From: Rhodocytophaga rosea
Lineage (GTDB): Bacteria > Bacteroidota > Bacteroidia > Cytophagales > 172606-1
Length of the DNA: 64,000 nucleotides
Direction: 5' to 3'
NCBI RefSeq assembly: GCF_010119975.1
Contig: NZ_CP048222.1
Coordinates: 3,614,501-3,678,500 of the forward strand
Of this stretch, positions 51,151-58,008 are shown piece after piece. The notes under the pieces were generated by a model that worked only from the letters and a program-made list of their open reading frames with translations, was not told the DNA's origin and did no database searches. Numbering within the stretch: position 1 is the first letter of the stretch; every line of letters begins with the position of its first letter. Both the position numbers and the translations under genes were made by a program.

Positions 51151-53013
51151 ATGTTCAAAGAATATGATGTTATTGTAGTAGGGGCAGGTCATGCCGGTTG
51201 TGAAGCTGCAGCAGCAGCTGCAAATATGGGATCAGATGTATTATTGATTACGATGAATATGCAAACTATAGCGCAAATGTCTTGTAATCCGGCAATGGGA
51301 GGTGTAGCAAAAGGTCAGATCGTAAGAGAAATTGATGCATTAGGGGGTCAATCAGGAATAATAACGGATAAAACAATGATCCAATTTAGGATGCTAAATT
51401 ATTCTAAAGGGCCTGCAATGTGGAGTCCAAGAGCACAGAGTGATAGAATGAAATTTGCAGAAGAATGGAGATTGACCTTGGAAGGGATTGAAAAATTAGA
51501 TTTTTGGCAAGATATGGTTAAAAACTTGATTATTAAAAATAAGAAAGTTATAGGAGTCAAAACATCAATTGGAGTAAATATTTATAGCAAATCTGTAGTG
51601 TTAACAAATGGAACATTTCTGAATGGATTAATACATATTGGAGAAAAGAATTTTGGGGGAGGAAGAACAGCAGAAAAAGCAGCAACAGGTATAACTGAAC
51701 AATTGATTGAATTAGGTTTTGAATCGGGTAGAATGAAAACAGGAACTCCACCAAGAGTAGACGGGAGAAGCTTGAACTATGAAGTTATGGAAGAACAGAA
51801 AGGAGACGAAAATCCAAGTAAGTTTTCTTATACAAATACGCCAAAGTTATCAAAACAAAGGAGTTGCTATATAACATATACAAATACTGAAGTACATGAG
51901 ATTTTAAAAACCGGTTTTGATAAATCACCTATGTTTACAGGACGAATTCAAGGCCGGGGTCCAAGATATTGCCCTTCTGTAGAAGATAAAATAAATAGAT
52001 TTTCAGATAAAGATAGACATCAAATTTTTGTTGAACCTGAAGGATGGAATACAGTAGAAATATATGTTAATGGTTTTTCTACATCACTACCTGAAGATAT
52101 TCAATACAAAGCTTTGAAAAAAATCCCCGGTTTTGAAAAAGTAAAAATGTTCAGACCTGGTTATGCCATTGAATACGATTACTTTCCACCTACACAACTG
52201 AGTGCAACCTTAGAAACTAAACAAATTGAAAATTTATATTTTGCAGGTCAAATTAACGGAACAACAGGTTATGAAGAAGCGGCTTGTCAAGGTTTAATGG
52301 CGGGGATAAATGCTCACAATAAAGTAAAAAACAAAGAGCCTTTAGTTTTAAAAAGGTCGGAAGCGTATATAGGAGTGTTAATAGATGATTTAATAAACAA
52401 AGGGACAGAAGAACCTTATCGTATGTTTACTTCAAGAGCAGAGTACAGAATTTTACTTAGGCAAGATAATGCCGATGTACGATTGACAGAGATAGGATAC
52501 AATATTGGTTTAGCATCACAAGAAAGATTAGAATCCATGAAAAATAAAAAAAAGAAAGTTGAAGAGCTCATTCAGTTAATAAAATCTACGAAAATTCAAC
52601 CTGAAGAAATAAATCCATACTTAGAAAGTATCAGTACAGCGACAATACGAGAAAAAACTTCAGTATACAATTTATTAAAAAGGCCAGATGTAGATATCAA
52701 AATAATAGAAAATCAGGCGATAATTCAGTTTAGTAGTCTAAATAGTTACGAAGCTGAAATAAAGGAACAAGCTGAAATTTCAATTAAATATGAGAGCTAT
52801 ATTGAGAAGGAACAAAAAAATGTTGAAAAGTTGAATGAATTGGAAGGACTAAGAATCCATAATAATTTCAACTATGATGCCTTGATAGCAATGTCAAAGG
52901 AGGGAAGAGAAAAATTAAAGAAAATTAAGCCAGAAACCATAGGCCAGGCATCACGAATTAGCGGAGTATCTCCCTCAGACATATCCATACTTATGGTATA
53001 TATGGGGAGATAA
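51151..53013 (+). CDS. mnmG: tRNA uridine-5-carboxymethylaminomethyl modification enzyme MnmG
   Basis: 620 residues. FAD-binding Rossmann motif IVVGAGHAGCEAA (~9-21), MSCNPAMGGVAKGQIVREID, FRPGYAIEYDYFPP, GQINGTTGYEEAACQG and YRMFTSRAEYRILLRQDNAD are the MnmG/GidA signatures. With MnmE it modifies U34 of certain tRNAs. In many bacteria this gene borders oriC; here a DnaA-box cluster is ~2.7 kb downstream and two parS-like sites are just upstream. Arg codons are almost all AGA/AGG and third positions A-rich, unlike the upstream genes. Confidence 0.97.
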   Translation: MFKEYDVIVVGAGHAGCEAAAAAANMGSDVLLITMNMQTIAQMSCNPAMGGVAKGQIVREIDALGGQSGIITDKTMIQFRMLNYSKGPAMWSPRAQSDRMKFAEEWRLTLEGIEKLDFWQDMVKNLIIKNKKVIGVKTSIGVNIYSKSVVLTNGTFLNGLIHIGEKNFGGGRTAEKAATGITEQLIELGFESGRMKTGTPPRVDGRSLNYEVMEEQKGDENPSKFSYTNTPKLSKQRSCYITYTNTEVHEILKTGFDKSPMFTGRIQGRGPRYCPSVEDKINRFSDKDRHQIFVEPEGWNTVEIYVNGFSTSLPEDIQYKALKKIPGFEKVKMFRPGYAIEYDYFPPTQLSATLETKQIENLYFAGQINGTTGYEEAACQGLMAGINAHNKVKNKEPLVLKRSEAYIGVLIDDLINKGTEEPYRMFTSRAEYRILLRQDNADVRLTEIGYNIGLASQERLESMKNKKKKVEELIQLIKSTKIQPEEINPYLESISTATIREKTSVYNLLKRPDVDIKIIENQAIIQFSSLNSYEAEIKEQAEISIKYESYIEKEQKNVEKLNELEGLRIHNNFNYDALIAMSKEGREKLKKIKPETIGQASRISGVSPSDISILMVYMGR

Positions 53014-53984: not shown

Positions 53985-55619
53985 ATGAAACAAAACGCCA
54001 TAAAATTTATAACTAATATCCTCTCAATTTTTTATTTATATGGATGCGCAAGTCAGGCCGTTCCTACAGGTGGAAAAAAAGATATCGAACCACCCAATAT
54101 TGAAGCTTCCATACCGAAAGATAAAAGTACAAATTTTCCAGGCAAACAGATAGAGATAGTTTTCAATGAATTGGTAAGTATTGAAAATATAAAACAAGAA
54201 CTCTTAATTACACCCAGACCAGAAGGAAATTATGAATATGAACTAAAGAAAAATCGATTAAGCTTAACATTTGAAAAGCCATTTCAAAAAAATACTACCT
54301 ATACATTCAATTTCAGAAAATCGATTAAAGATGTAACAGAGAAAAATATTGCCGAAAATGCAAAAATTGTATTTAGTACAGGAGATATAATTGATTCATT
54401 ATACATAGCCGGAAAAATGACTGATTTATTAACAAATAAACCAGTAGAAGAAGGATTAATTTTATTGTATAAAGCAGATGATACATTAAAAATTACAAAG
54501 CATGCTCCTTATTATTTAACCAAAACAGATAAGAGTGGAAATTATCTTTTAGAAAATTTAAAAGAGGATACTTATCTTATATATGCTTTATCAGAGAAAA
54601 ATAACAATCAAAAGTACGATCAGGAAAAAGAAAAAATTGGCTTTTTAAATACTCCTATTAATCTGACAGATAATATAGACACACTGAATTTTACACTAAG
54701 CATTATTGATACCCTTCCACCAAAACTGTTAAAACCCAGGCCGGATGCAGAATATTATCAATTAGAATTTAATGAAGGTTTGAGCAAAATATCTATAAAA
54801 CATGCCTCAAATAACAATCAATTATATTATCAAATACAAGATCCGAATAAAGTAAGAGTATATAATACAATAAACTCAAATGATAGCATTCCTATAATCG
54901 TAACAGCCTTAGACTCAATTGGAAATAAACTTGAAAAGGAAGTAAATATTAAATTTAATTCTACAGCAAATACAAGTGGTAATAACAATACCAAAGAAAA
55001 AAGAAAGGAAAAATTAAATATATCTATAAAGCCATCTGATGGAGAAAAGGTAGAGAAAAATTTTATTTACAATATAGGGTTTAGTAAACCGATTCAGAAA
55101 TATAGCCTTGATAGTGTCAGTTTACTGGCCGATACACTTACACCTATAAAATTGAATTTAAGAGAAGATTTTAAATGGAATGAATATTATACAGAGTTAA
55201 GTATCAATAAAAAAATTGTAATTCAAAAAAATATTCGGGTTATAATTCCCGAAGGTACGTTTTATAGCGTAGAAGGAGATACAAGCGCTAAGTTTGTTAC
55301 CACCCATGACTTGAAAGACATAGCGGATTATGGTTCAATAAGCGGAAATGTAAATACAACCGAAAAAAAATTTATCGTACAACTTATAGATGCAGAATCT
55401 AAAGTAATGGATGAACAAAAAAATATCCAAAAATATAGGTTTGATTACCTGGCTGCCGGTAAATATAGAATCAGAGTTATTATTGATTCAAATGGAAATG
55501 GGAAATGGGACCAGGGAAATTTTAATGAAAAGCGCCAACCTGAGTCAATCGTATTTTCACAAGAAGAAATTAATTTGAAAGAAAATTGGGAAATGGTTTT
55601 CAACGAAATTAACATTTAA
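53985..55619 (+). CDS. Ig-like domain lipoprotein
   Basis: 544 residues with lipoprotein signal (IFYLYGC, Cys21) followed by ASQAVPTGGKKDIEPP. Residues ~35-130 form a Big_5/SbsA-like Ig fold (NFPGKQIEIVFNELVSIENI, TTYTFNFRKSIKDV). A middle carboxypeptidase-regulatory-like unit follows (TDKSGNYLLENLKEDTYLIY), and the C-terminus repeats a similar motif (YLAAGKYRIRVIIDSNGNGK). This architecture is widespread in Bacteroidota with no known function; probably an envelope structural protein. It ends just before the probable oriC. Confidence 0.82.
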   Translation: MKQNAIKFITNILSIFYLYGCASQAVPTGGKKDIEPPNIEASIPKDKSTNFPGKQIEIVFNELVSIENIKQELLITPRPEGNYEYELKKNRLSLTFEKPFQKNTTYTFNFRKSIKDVTEKNIAENAKIVFSTGDIIDSLYIAGKMTDLLTNKPVEEGLILLYKADDTLKITKHAPYYLTKTDKSGNYLLENLKEDTYLIYALSEKNNNQKYDQEKEKIGFLNTPINLTDNIDTLNFTLSIIDTLPPKLLKPRPDAEYYQLEFNEGLSKISIKHASNNNQLYYQIQDPNKVRVYNTINSNDSIPIIVTALDSIGNKLEKEVNIKFNSTANTSGNNNTKEKRKEKLNISIKPSDGEKVEKNFIYNIGFSKPIQKYSLDSVSLLADTLTPIKLNLREDFKWNEYYTELSINKKIVIQKNIRVIIPEGTFYSVEGDTSAKFVTTHDLKDIADYGSISGNVNTTEKKFIVQLIDAESKVMDEQKNIQKYRFDYLAAGKYRIRVIIDSNGNGKWDQGNFNEKRQPESIVFSQEEINLKENWEMVFNEINI

Positions 55620-55654
55620 ATCAAAAAAGGTCTATTTAATATAGAAAATATCAT

Positions 55655-56010
55655 AATAAAATGTGGATATGTCTGTGGATATGTGCAAAAACTATGTAGA
55701 TAAGACATACCTCCATAATGTATAAATGTTGGAATAAGTTTCTACCTTTCATAATACACTGCTGTATTTCTTATATTGTGAATAAATCTCATTAAACATA
55801 GATTATCTACACACATATATCCACATAAGGAAATTGATAATAATTAAAAAGTTAACCACAAATTAGGCTATGTGGAAAAGAGTGGATAAAATTTATAACT
55901 ATCAGATTGACAAAGGCAAAATGGTGGATAACCCTGTGGATAACTAATCACTTATCCACATTTTAAAGAAGCAATTTCCAGGTAATAAATATTTATCCAC
56001 ATATCTACAG
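55655..56010. other. probable chromosomal replication origin (oriC): DnaA-box cluster
   Basis: The intergenic stretch holds about 14 DnaA-box-like 9-mers in 350 bp. Three are perfect TTATCCACA or its complement: 55935-55943 (minus orientation), 55952-55960 and 55993-56001. About eleven more differ by one or two bases, including 55662, 55674, 55695, 55777, 55803, 55817, 55852, 55871, 55881, 55923 and 56001. They are mixed in orientation. The density is far above chance and the next ~80 bp are nearly pure A/T. Nearby mnmG and parS sites add support. dnaA itself is not in the window, and flanking gene directions are not typical of an origin. Confidence 0.82.
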
Positions 56011-56091
56011 CTTAATAATATATAATAACAATTAAATAAATATTTAAATAATTAAAATAAGAAATTGAAAGAAATCTAAAAGAAAAACTAT
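56011..56091. other. AT-rich probable DNA-unwinding element of oriC
   Basis: About 81 bp with nearly no G or C (TTAATAATATATAATAACAA and similar) immediately after the last DnaA boxes and before the TPR gene. This is the usual position of the duplex-unwinding element beside a DnaA-box cluster. Confidence 0.6.
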
Positions 56092-57927
56092 ATGAGAAGA
56101 TCAAATAAATTTATAGGAGTAGTATTAAAAATTACCTGTGTAGGAATTTTACTTTTTCATACAAGTATTCAGGCACAAAACCAGGATATAGATTTAGCAA
56201 ATCAATATTTAGAGCAAAAAGAGTATGAAAAGGCTAAAGCGATATTTCAGAAAATAATAAAGCGCGATGATATTGATAAAATAGTGTATAAAAACTATTT
56301 ATATACATTACAGGAATTAAAAGAATGGAATGAAGTTGATAAATATCTGAAAAGGCATATAAAAAATAATCCTGAAGAAATGAAATATAAAATAGATTAT
56401 GCATTTAATCTTCAAAAACAAGGAAAAGAAAATGAATCAGAAAAATACGTAGAAAAGTTAATAGATGAATCCAAAAAGGACTTAGCCAAATCAGAAGTAC
56501 TGGCTAGCGCATTAATGAAAGAAAATAAATTGGAATGGGCTGAAAAAGTATATTTAGAAGCAAGAAAAAATTCTGGTAATCCTAATCTCTATGCACTTCA
56601 AATAGCAAATCTATATAAGATCCAGAATAATACCATAAAGATGATTGAGGAGTACATTAATCTGGCAATGGAAAATAAAAACAATTTAACAGTTCTTCAG
56701 AATGTGTTACAGGATAATTTAACAAAACCGGAAGAATATGAAAAATTAGAACAGGTATTAATATCAAGAATACAAAAGGAACCTACAGAAAATATGTATA
56801 GTGATTTGCTAATATGGTATTATATACAGCAAAAAGATTTTAATAAAGCATTTTTTCAGGCAAGATCTATGGATAAACGTATGAAACTTGAAGGATCAAA
56901 GCTTACTGAAATCGGAATGATCAGTTTACAAAACAAAGATTATAAAAGTGCAAGTACCATATATGAATATCTAGTAAAAGAATATCCCCAAAGCCCAAGT
57001 TATCCGATATACCGCCGCTACCTGATTATGTCAAGGGAGGAGCTTGTAAAAAATACATTTCCTATTAACAGAGATCAAATACAATCATTAATTGTTGATT
57101 ATCAGCGCCTTATAGGAGATATAGGAAAAACTCAACAATCTGCTGAAGCTATGAGGAATATGGCCGTGCTGTACGGATTCTACTTAGACAACAAAGATAC
57201 GGCATTGTTTTACCTGAAGGAATCTGTAAAATATGCCAGGCAAAACAGTGATTTGATTGCAAAATGTAAAATAGATATGGGAGATATTTATCTCTTGAAA
57301 AATGAACCATGGGAAGCGACACTTTTGTATTCACAGGTTGAAAAAAGCAATAAAGAGCAGCCCATTGGGTATGAGGCAAAACTGAAAAATGCGAAATTAT
57401 CCTATTACAAAGGGGAGTTCGAGCTGGCGCAAGGTCACTTAGATATTCTGAAACTGGCAACTTCCCGAGAAATAGCGAATGATGCAATGGATCTGAGTTT
57501 ACTTATTCAGGATAATCTGGCCATGGATACAGTAGGCGAAGCGATGAAAGAATATGCTTCAGCGGAACTATTGCTTTTTCAAAACAAAGATCAGGAAGCA
57601 TTGCGAAAACTGGAAGCCATGAATGAAAAATATAAGGGTCATAGTTTGTCTGATGAAATCTTATGGCTGGAAGCACAGATAAATATCCGTAGCAATGAAA
57701 ATTTGAAAGCTGTAGAAAAACTCGAAAAAATAGTGAACAATTATGGACATGATATTCTTGGAGATGATGCCCATTTTATGATGGCTAAACTTCTTGAAGA
57801 AAAATTAAATGATAAAGAAAAAGCAATGGAGCTATATCAAAATCATTTAATTAAATATCCAGGAAGCATCTATTCTGTGGAAGCACGCAAGAGATTCAGA
57901 CAGTTACGAGGAGATAGAGTAAATTAG
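56092..57927 (+). CDS. secreted TPR-repeat protein
   Basis: 611 residues with a signal peptide ending near SIQAQ. Most of the length is tetratricopeptide repeats: ANQYLEQKEYEKAKAIFQKI near the start, YKSASTIYEYLVKEYPQSPS in the middle, and NDKEKAMELYQNHLIKYPGS at the end. It should act as a periplasmic scaffold, as in BamD-like or gliding/secretion machinery proteins; the partner is unknown. Base composition changes from A-rich (first ~900 bp) to more balanced toward the 3' end. The stop codon lies in a 15-bp tandem repeat. Confidence 0.82.
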   Translation: MRRSNKFIGVVLKITCVGILLFHTSIQAQNQDIDLANQYLEQKEYEKAKAIFQKIIKRDDIDKIVYKNYLYTLQELKEWNEVDKYLKRHIKNNPEEMKYKIDYAFNLQKQGKENESEKYVEKLIDESKKDLAKSEVLASALMKENKLEWAEKVYLEARKNSGNPNLYALQIANLYKIQNNTIKMIEEYINLAMENKNNLTVLQNVLQDNLTKPEEYEKLEQVLISRIQKEPTENMYSDLLIWYYIQQKDFNKAFFQARSMDKRMKLEGSKLTEIGMISLQNKDYKSASTIYEYLVKEYPQSPSYPIYRRYLIMSREELVKNTFPINRDQIQSLIVDYQRLIGDIGKTQQSAEAMRNMAVLYGFYLDNKDTALFYLKESVKYARQNSDLIAKCKIDMGDIYLLKNEPWEATLLYSQVEKSNKEQPIGYEAKLKNAKLSYYKGEFELAQGHLDILKLATSREIANDAMDLSLLIQDNLAMDTVGEAMKEYASAELLLFQNKDQEALRKLEAMNEKYKGHSLSDEILWLEAQINIRSNENLKAVEKLEKIVNNYGHDILGDDAHFMMAKLLEEKLNDKEKAMELYQNHLIKYPGSIYSVEARKRFRQLRGDRVN

Positions 57928-57950
57928 GCTTGTCTAAATTAGGCTTGTCT
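57921..57950 (+). repeat. 15-bp tandem duplication over the TPR stop codon
   Basis: AAATTAGGCTTGTCT occurs twice in a row (57921-57935 and 57936-57950). The first copy contains the TAG stop of the TPR gene. It looks like a recent local duplication. Confidence 0.9.
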
Positions 57951-57963
57951 AAAAAATTAATCA

Positions 57964-58008
57964 GCCCCAATATAGTTTAGATGAGTCTAAACTATATTGG
58001 GGCTTTGG
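57964..58008 (+). terminator. 18-bp perfect-stem terminator after the TPR gene
   Basis: GCCCCAATATAGTTTAGA and its exact complement at 57986-58003, with loop TGAG, followed by TTTGG. The T-run is short but the stem is strong. Confidence 0.8.

Follow-up and report, generated by a model that had tools for sequence, protein, structure and literature searches.

The non-coding region at positions 55655-56091 of the 64,000-nucleotide stretch of Rhodocytophaga rosea DNA that was analyzed (the window) is very probably the chromosomal oriC of this bacterium, an origin of the ordinary type that lies far from dnaA. In genome coordinates the region corresponds to 3,670,155-3,670,591 on a single contig of 8,983,451 bp. 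Dense DnaA boxes are contained in a non-coding spacer, an AT-rich element adjoins them, and the arrangement is found in the same place in relatives. An earlier note on this DNA had proposed a probable oriC here, and the proposal is now supported by the conservation of the cluster, its box-spacer-trio end, the rank of that end under a sequence-only model (R1), the AT tract, the presence of mnmG (gidA) nearby, and, with mixed results, the strand composition of the chromosome after correction for gene strand.

The DnaA-box array and the AT-rich tract

The spacer extends from 55620 to 56091 between the ORFs at 53985-55619 and 56092-57927. Thirteen DnaA boxes with no more than one mismatch are present on the two strands within 340 bp of this spacer (55662-56001), consisting of three perfect copies of TTATCCACA (55935, 55952 and 55993) and ten copies with one mismatch. 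Over the whole of 55655-56091 the count rises to 15 boxes at up to two mismatches and 24 at up to three. The positions of the boxes and of the other features are listed in Table 1. The 80 bp at 56013-56092, of which only 7 are G or C, are lower in stability than any other 80-bp stretch of the whole 64 kb. These observations agree with the layout described in the earlier note, namely three perfect boxes in a non-coding spacer, an adjoining tract of about 80 bp with almost no G or C, and an Ig-like lipoprotein gene (a Big_5 protein on the left) and a TPR gene (on the right) as flanks. Its figure of about eleven near matches was right in substance but approximate as a count, as there are 10 at one mismatch and 12 at up to two.

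Table 1. Features of the proposed origin and its surroundings (window coordinates, except for the last row, which is in genome coordinates)
Feature	Position	Strand	Remarks
mnmG (gidA)	51151..53013	+	NCBIfam TIGR00136, 851.9 bits (cut-off 524.85)
Ig-like (Big_5/DUF2141) probable lipoprotein gene, left neighbour	53985..55619	+	
Left and middle DnaA-box array	55662..55889	both	9 boxes, all one mismatch from TTATCCACA
Left and middle boxes, singly	55662(-), 55674(-), 55695(-), 55777(-), 55803(+), 55817(+), 55852(+), 55871(-), 55881(-)	both	each one mismatch
Right DnaA-box array	55923..56001	both	55923(-, one mismatch), 55935(-, perfect), 55952(+, perfect), 55993(+, perfect)
Basal-unwinding-type element	55993..56020	+	box, weak tandem box, GC, three trio-like triplets
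Terminal box TTATCCACA	55993-56001	+	perfect
Weak overlapping tandem box ATATCTACA	56001-56009		two mismatches
GC dinucleotide	56010-56011		
DnaA-trio-like triplets TTA-ATA-ATA	56012-56020		10 bp from first box to trios
AT-rich tract, probable DNA unwinding element	56012..56091		lowest stability at 56013-56092
TPR-repeat protein gene, right neighbour	56092..57927	+	matches in 50 of 59 genomes, own included
Frames weakly matching the DnaA family model (L102-L108)	7697483, 7653356, 1280297, 3309387, 2922781, 8891451, 2381833		own genome

The window contains 29 boxes at up to one mismatch, compared to 21.2 (sd 4.5) in shuffled sequences, and 13 of the 29 fall inside the 340 bp. A one-mismatch survey of 2.87 Mb, which is 32% of the genome (500 bp of it counted twice), gave a background of 0.137 boxes per 400 bp; the next densest 400 bp held 4 boxes and the cluster 13. 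A chance cluster in AT-rich DNA would draw on the AT-richness of the region and on nothing beyond it, and such an accident is hardly credible given 13 boxes where about 0.1 would be expected and comparable clusters before the same TPR gene in relatives.

Perfect boxes number 77 genome-wide, and three of them lie within 67 bp of one another at the cluster only. Two other loci, at 4.25 and 6.29 Mb, each have two perfect boxes that start less than 100 bp apart; they were rejected, with just 3 boxes per 400 bp. A spaced double-box pattern was likewise discarded for the genome-wide search because it was too loose, with 102 matches against 93 for a reversed control. The single one-mismatch match to this pattern falls inside the cluster.

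Sites of the E. coli datA or DARS type also carry DnaA boxes, and the spacer also lies directly upstream of the TPR gene. The cluster could therefore be a site that titrates or recharges DnaA, or a promoter through which DnaA controls the TPR gene, with the true origin elsewhere. We consider this improbable, because neither three close perfect boxes anywhere else in the genome nor more than 4 boxes in any other 400 bp of the 2.87 Mb were found, because the box-spacer-trio end and the AT tract are features of origins, and because the switch in corrected skew lies close to the cluster.

The distal end of the array

The sequence at 55993-56020 reads TTATCCACA-TATCTACA-GC-TTA-ATA-ATA. The strand of the trios relative to the box was taken as in Bacillus subtilis. 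When the rule for the basal unwinding system (BUS) was applied (a box, a spacer of at most 16 bp, and at least three trios with a middle A), it found a match at 56012-56020 with the A on the minus strand. Three triplets are the minimum that the published rule accepts, and the match would be weak if taken alone.

The basal unwinding system of B. subtilis comprises DnaA-boxes 6/7, a short spacer and DnaA-trios (PMC8287927, PMC6669920) with the consensus 3'-GAT-5' (PMC6669920, PMC8287927), and the spacing between box and trios peaks at 10-13 bp with a limit of 16 bp (PMC8287927). The end of the R. rosea array is similar in its box or boxes, its short spacer and its triplets by an AT-rich tract, and the 10 bp measured here fits the spacing given in PMC8287927. 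It differs in having only three triplets, and the CTA-ATA-ATA of relatives is nearer to 3'-GAT-5' than is the TTA-ATA-ATA of R. rosea.

In the cluster-bearing relatives, a box and a short spacer are followed by CTAATAATA, or by a more or less near form of it, before the AT tract, and a tandem box pair is seen at the distal end in 14 of the 18 relatives that were aligned by eye. The model R1, which describes this end from sequence only, was made from 18 relatives (the 17 that bear a cluster and G015) with the own genome left out. Run on the 8.98-Mb genome, R1 placed the cluster site at the top of 12 matches with an E-value of 0.0137, which is weak as such, while the next match had 0.108; this rank holds among the candidates scored, which were 150 of 3928 first-look candidates. 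On the window itself the E-value was 0.011. A second run covered the window and 38 of 80 named loci, mostly picked for having boxes, and in 22 of the 38 a match with an E-value below 0.01 was located at the start of the TPR match or up to 270 bp before it. One of these 22, L219 (G030), was part of R1 itself.

Conservation of the cluster in relatives

To compare the same place in other genomes, the 29 best-scoring TPR-gene loci among the 59 genomes searched were used as relatives. Of the 29, 17 carry at least 8 boxes in the 1.5 kb upstream of the orthologous TPR gene and the other 12 carry 0-3 boxes; simulated sequence of like composition contains 0.05-1.0 boxes per 1.5 kb on average. Within the family, six members gave a match to the TPR gene, and the cluster precedes it in all six; the seventh member, G007 (72% complete), gave no match. 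In 12 of the 17 cluster-bearing relatives, a homologue of the Ig-like protein ends no more than 1.5 kb upstream of the TPR gene. It is also kept upstream in four relatives that have no cluster (G058, G015, G010 and G029), where the boxes are altered or eroded, and several other cluster-less relatives have, by eye, different DNA upstream of the TPR gene.

A scan of named genomes, which are partly the same as those in the 29-relative set, covered the best 80 loci, 78 of which had enough upstream DNA. At least 8 boxes were found before the TPR gene in 31 of the 78 loci and at least 5 in 43, compared to 2 of 78 with at least 5 boxes in the control region, the first 1.8 kb of the TPR gene. No box was found in 22 of the 78, and 19 of these 22 are from Pontibacter, Adhaeribacter or Botryobacter. 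Taken together, the three genera contribute 24 loci (among L184-L263; L204 with only 453 bp upstream), every one of which has 0-2 boxes, and the origin of that branch has therefore probably moved away from the TPR gene. The G010 and G029 loci (L127 and L128) have no one-mismatch boxes though they have the same left neighbour, and G044, which belongs to the same genus, has 15 boxes before its TPR gene. A recent loss of the origin in G010 and G029 is possible.

The box word itself differs by lineage, being TTATTCACA in G044 (L126), TTATCAACA in G053 (L125) and G039 (L136), and TTTTCCACA in G030 (L123). Many Cytophagales seem to have retained the origin upstream of the TPR gene, and in some branches it seems to have disappeared or shifted. 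A broader reading can be put forward tentatively, and we give it slightly less credence than doubt: the Cytophagales may share one origin address and one unwinding end (boxes and CTAATAATA-like trios), with a box word that drifts by lineage. In Pontibacter and its relatives, and in G010 and G029, the origin would then have eroded or moved. If true, the order would offer a natural series in which to follow how the code and the position of a dnaA-less origin change.

The dnaA gene and the DnaA protein

The locus had been described as dnaA-less in the earlier note, and this is correct, as the sole match above the DnaA cut-off lies at 883,414-884,814, at a distance of 2.79 Mb from the cluster. The Bacillus-type context, with oriC adjacent to dnaA, is not present at the cluster. 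The genome does encode a DnaA with a box-reading domain: the protein scored 535.8 bits with the family model (cut-off 343.9) and matched the solved DnaA 8btg (E 5.1e-117) in an alignment that spans the C-terminal box-reading domain and includes its GGRDH-TVIHA stretch. It also matched 1j1v (E 1.8e-15), which we take to be the E. coli box-reading domain. When 12 relatives were searched, dnaA and the TPR gene were on different contigs in 10, which are mostly drafts and hence give no distance, and at least 1 Mb apart on one contig in 2.

Seven open frames of 243 aa elsewhere in the genome match the DnaA family model weakly, six of them with one and the same score. They are probably the IstB-like ATPases of an insertion sequence that is present in several copies.

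Strand composition of the chromosome

Skew was sampled in 140 stretches of 20 kb and the window, with raw skew calculated from the first 100 of these stretches plus the window. As a check on the proposed origin, the earlier note had asked whether the minimum of the cumulative GC skew falls at 51-56 kb of the window. The raw minimum was instead found at ~2.25 Mb, 1.4 Mb off, and the raw maximum at 8.1-8.2 Mb. A minimum elsewhere in the genome was part of what the earlier note had named as evidence against an origin here, and at face value this is the case. Once gene strand is counted the objection seems to lapse, with mixed results for the corrected skew. The raw minimum was set aside because raw skew mixes gene strand with replication arm. 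Genes at 2.43-3.53 Mb are on the plus strand on balance in 9 of 13 stretches.

With a first correction, the cumulative minimum was located at 3.96 Mb for third-position skew and at 3.42 Mb for non-coding skew. Skew was then fitted with one gene-strand term and one replication-arm term at four-fold degenerate and non-coding sites, using 2066 ORFs from 141 stretches. On a 50-kb grid the best origin was at 3.70 Mb, and restricting the fit to coding sites gave 3.75 Mb; a 30-kb grid gave 3.72 Mb. The cluster is at 3.67 Mb. None of 300 permutations of the stretches fitted as well as the data. In 1000 bootstraps over stretches the 95% range was 2.94-4.05 Mb, with 62% of the bootstraps no more than 150 kb from the cluster, a second mode at 3.0-3.3 Mb (284 of 1000), and none either at 2.1-2.5 Mb or less than 0.3 Mb from dnaA. 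Leaving out the window and its flanks shifted the corrected optimum to 3.27 Mb. The best terminus, at ~0.1 Mb, results in unequal arms of ~5.4 and ~3.6 Mb and disagrees with the raw maximum. TA skew was uninformative.

The raw minimum would suit a cluster that is a former origin, with replication now beginning elsewhere, for example near ~2.25 Mb, and relatives do suggest that origins at this address can be lost. However, the boxes, the trio-like repeat and the AT tract are all still present in R. rosea, none of the 1000 corrected-skew bootstraps falls at 2.1-2.5 Mb, and the DNA around 2.25 Mb has at most 3 boxes per 400 bp in the part that was read (under half of that region). A former origin is thus very improbable, even more so than a titration site or promoter.

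Searching the available sequence of the genome for 16S rRNA gave no match, and the genes for 5S rRNA served instead; they are located at 1.139 Mb (+), 2.616 Mb (-) and 5.435 Mb (+). Two of the three are directed away from an origin at 3.67 Mb, compared to one of three for an origin at 2.25 Mb. Replication from the proposed origin would meet the 5S gene at 1139493-1139604 (+) head-on, which may be a hint of an inversion in that arm.

Proposed initiation and comparison with known origins

If the region is the oriC, DnaA from the gene 2.79 Mb off would bind the box array, where the boxes are observed and the binding is predicted. The later steps are modelled on the extension and opening course of the B. 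subtilis system, as outlined in PMC10721633. By this analogy, a DnaA oligomer would extend from the terminal boxes at 55993-56009 onto one strand of TTA-ATA-ATA, the AT tract at 56012-56091 would be opened by the oligomer, and replicative helicases would be loaded at the opened tract in both directions.

An origin distant from dnaA is common in Bacteroidetes, according to PMC4755523. The same paper describes the oriC of Prevotella intermedia OMA14 (Ori-Finder/DoriC), which is similar to the R. rosea locus in its multiple DnaA boxes and distant dnaA; in OMA14, however, GC skew turns clearly at the locus, while the raw skew of R. rosea does not. For Cytophaga hutchinsonii, a member of the same bacterial group by name, oriC plasmids have been reported (Xu et al. 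2012, cited in PMC5891637), and the title indicates that oriC drives the plasmids. PMC5288383 tabulates oriC vectors. Origins distant from dnaA in Bacteroidetes and the C. hutchinsonii oriC plasmids are thus already known. Searches of open-licence literature brought up no entry that names the place of a Cytophagales origin, and no title on a constant TPR-gene address or on lineage-specific box words. Two descriptive findings may be new, namely the fixed location upstream of the TPR gene and the box words that vary by lineage.

The result assigns an origin to a 9-Mb Bacteroidota chromosome on which raw GC skew would point 1.4 Mb off. For other Cytophagales drafts, the TPR neighbour gene and R1 may aid in locating the origin without recourse to skew. 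The location can be of use in growth-rate (peak-to-trough) work and for oriC vectors, and the general understanding of origins is unchanged.

Genes flanking the proposed origin

The gene mnmG/gidA is a frequent neighbour of bacterial origins. In R. rosea it is preceded by ybeY and is 2.6 kb from the cluster, which is a likeness to the E. coli-type oriC. The origin of E. coli and Y. pestis lies between gidA and mioC, as stated in PMC10225481. The R. rosea locus differs from the E. coli type in that two genes are located between mnmG and the cluster and in that the other flank is the TPR gene. The best named match of the TPR protein is from Rhodocytophaga aerolata (68% identity; order Cytophagales). 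The stretch 57924-58000, inspected by eye, begins at the end of the TPR gene with TTAGGCTTGTCTAAA twice in tandem and continues with a perfect hairpin that has 15-base arms and a TGAG loop.
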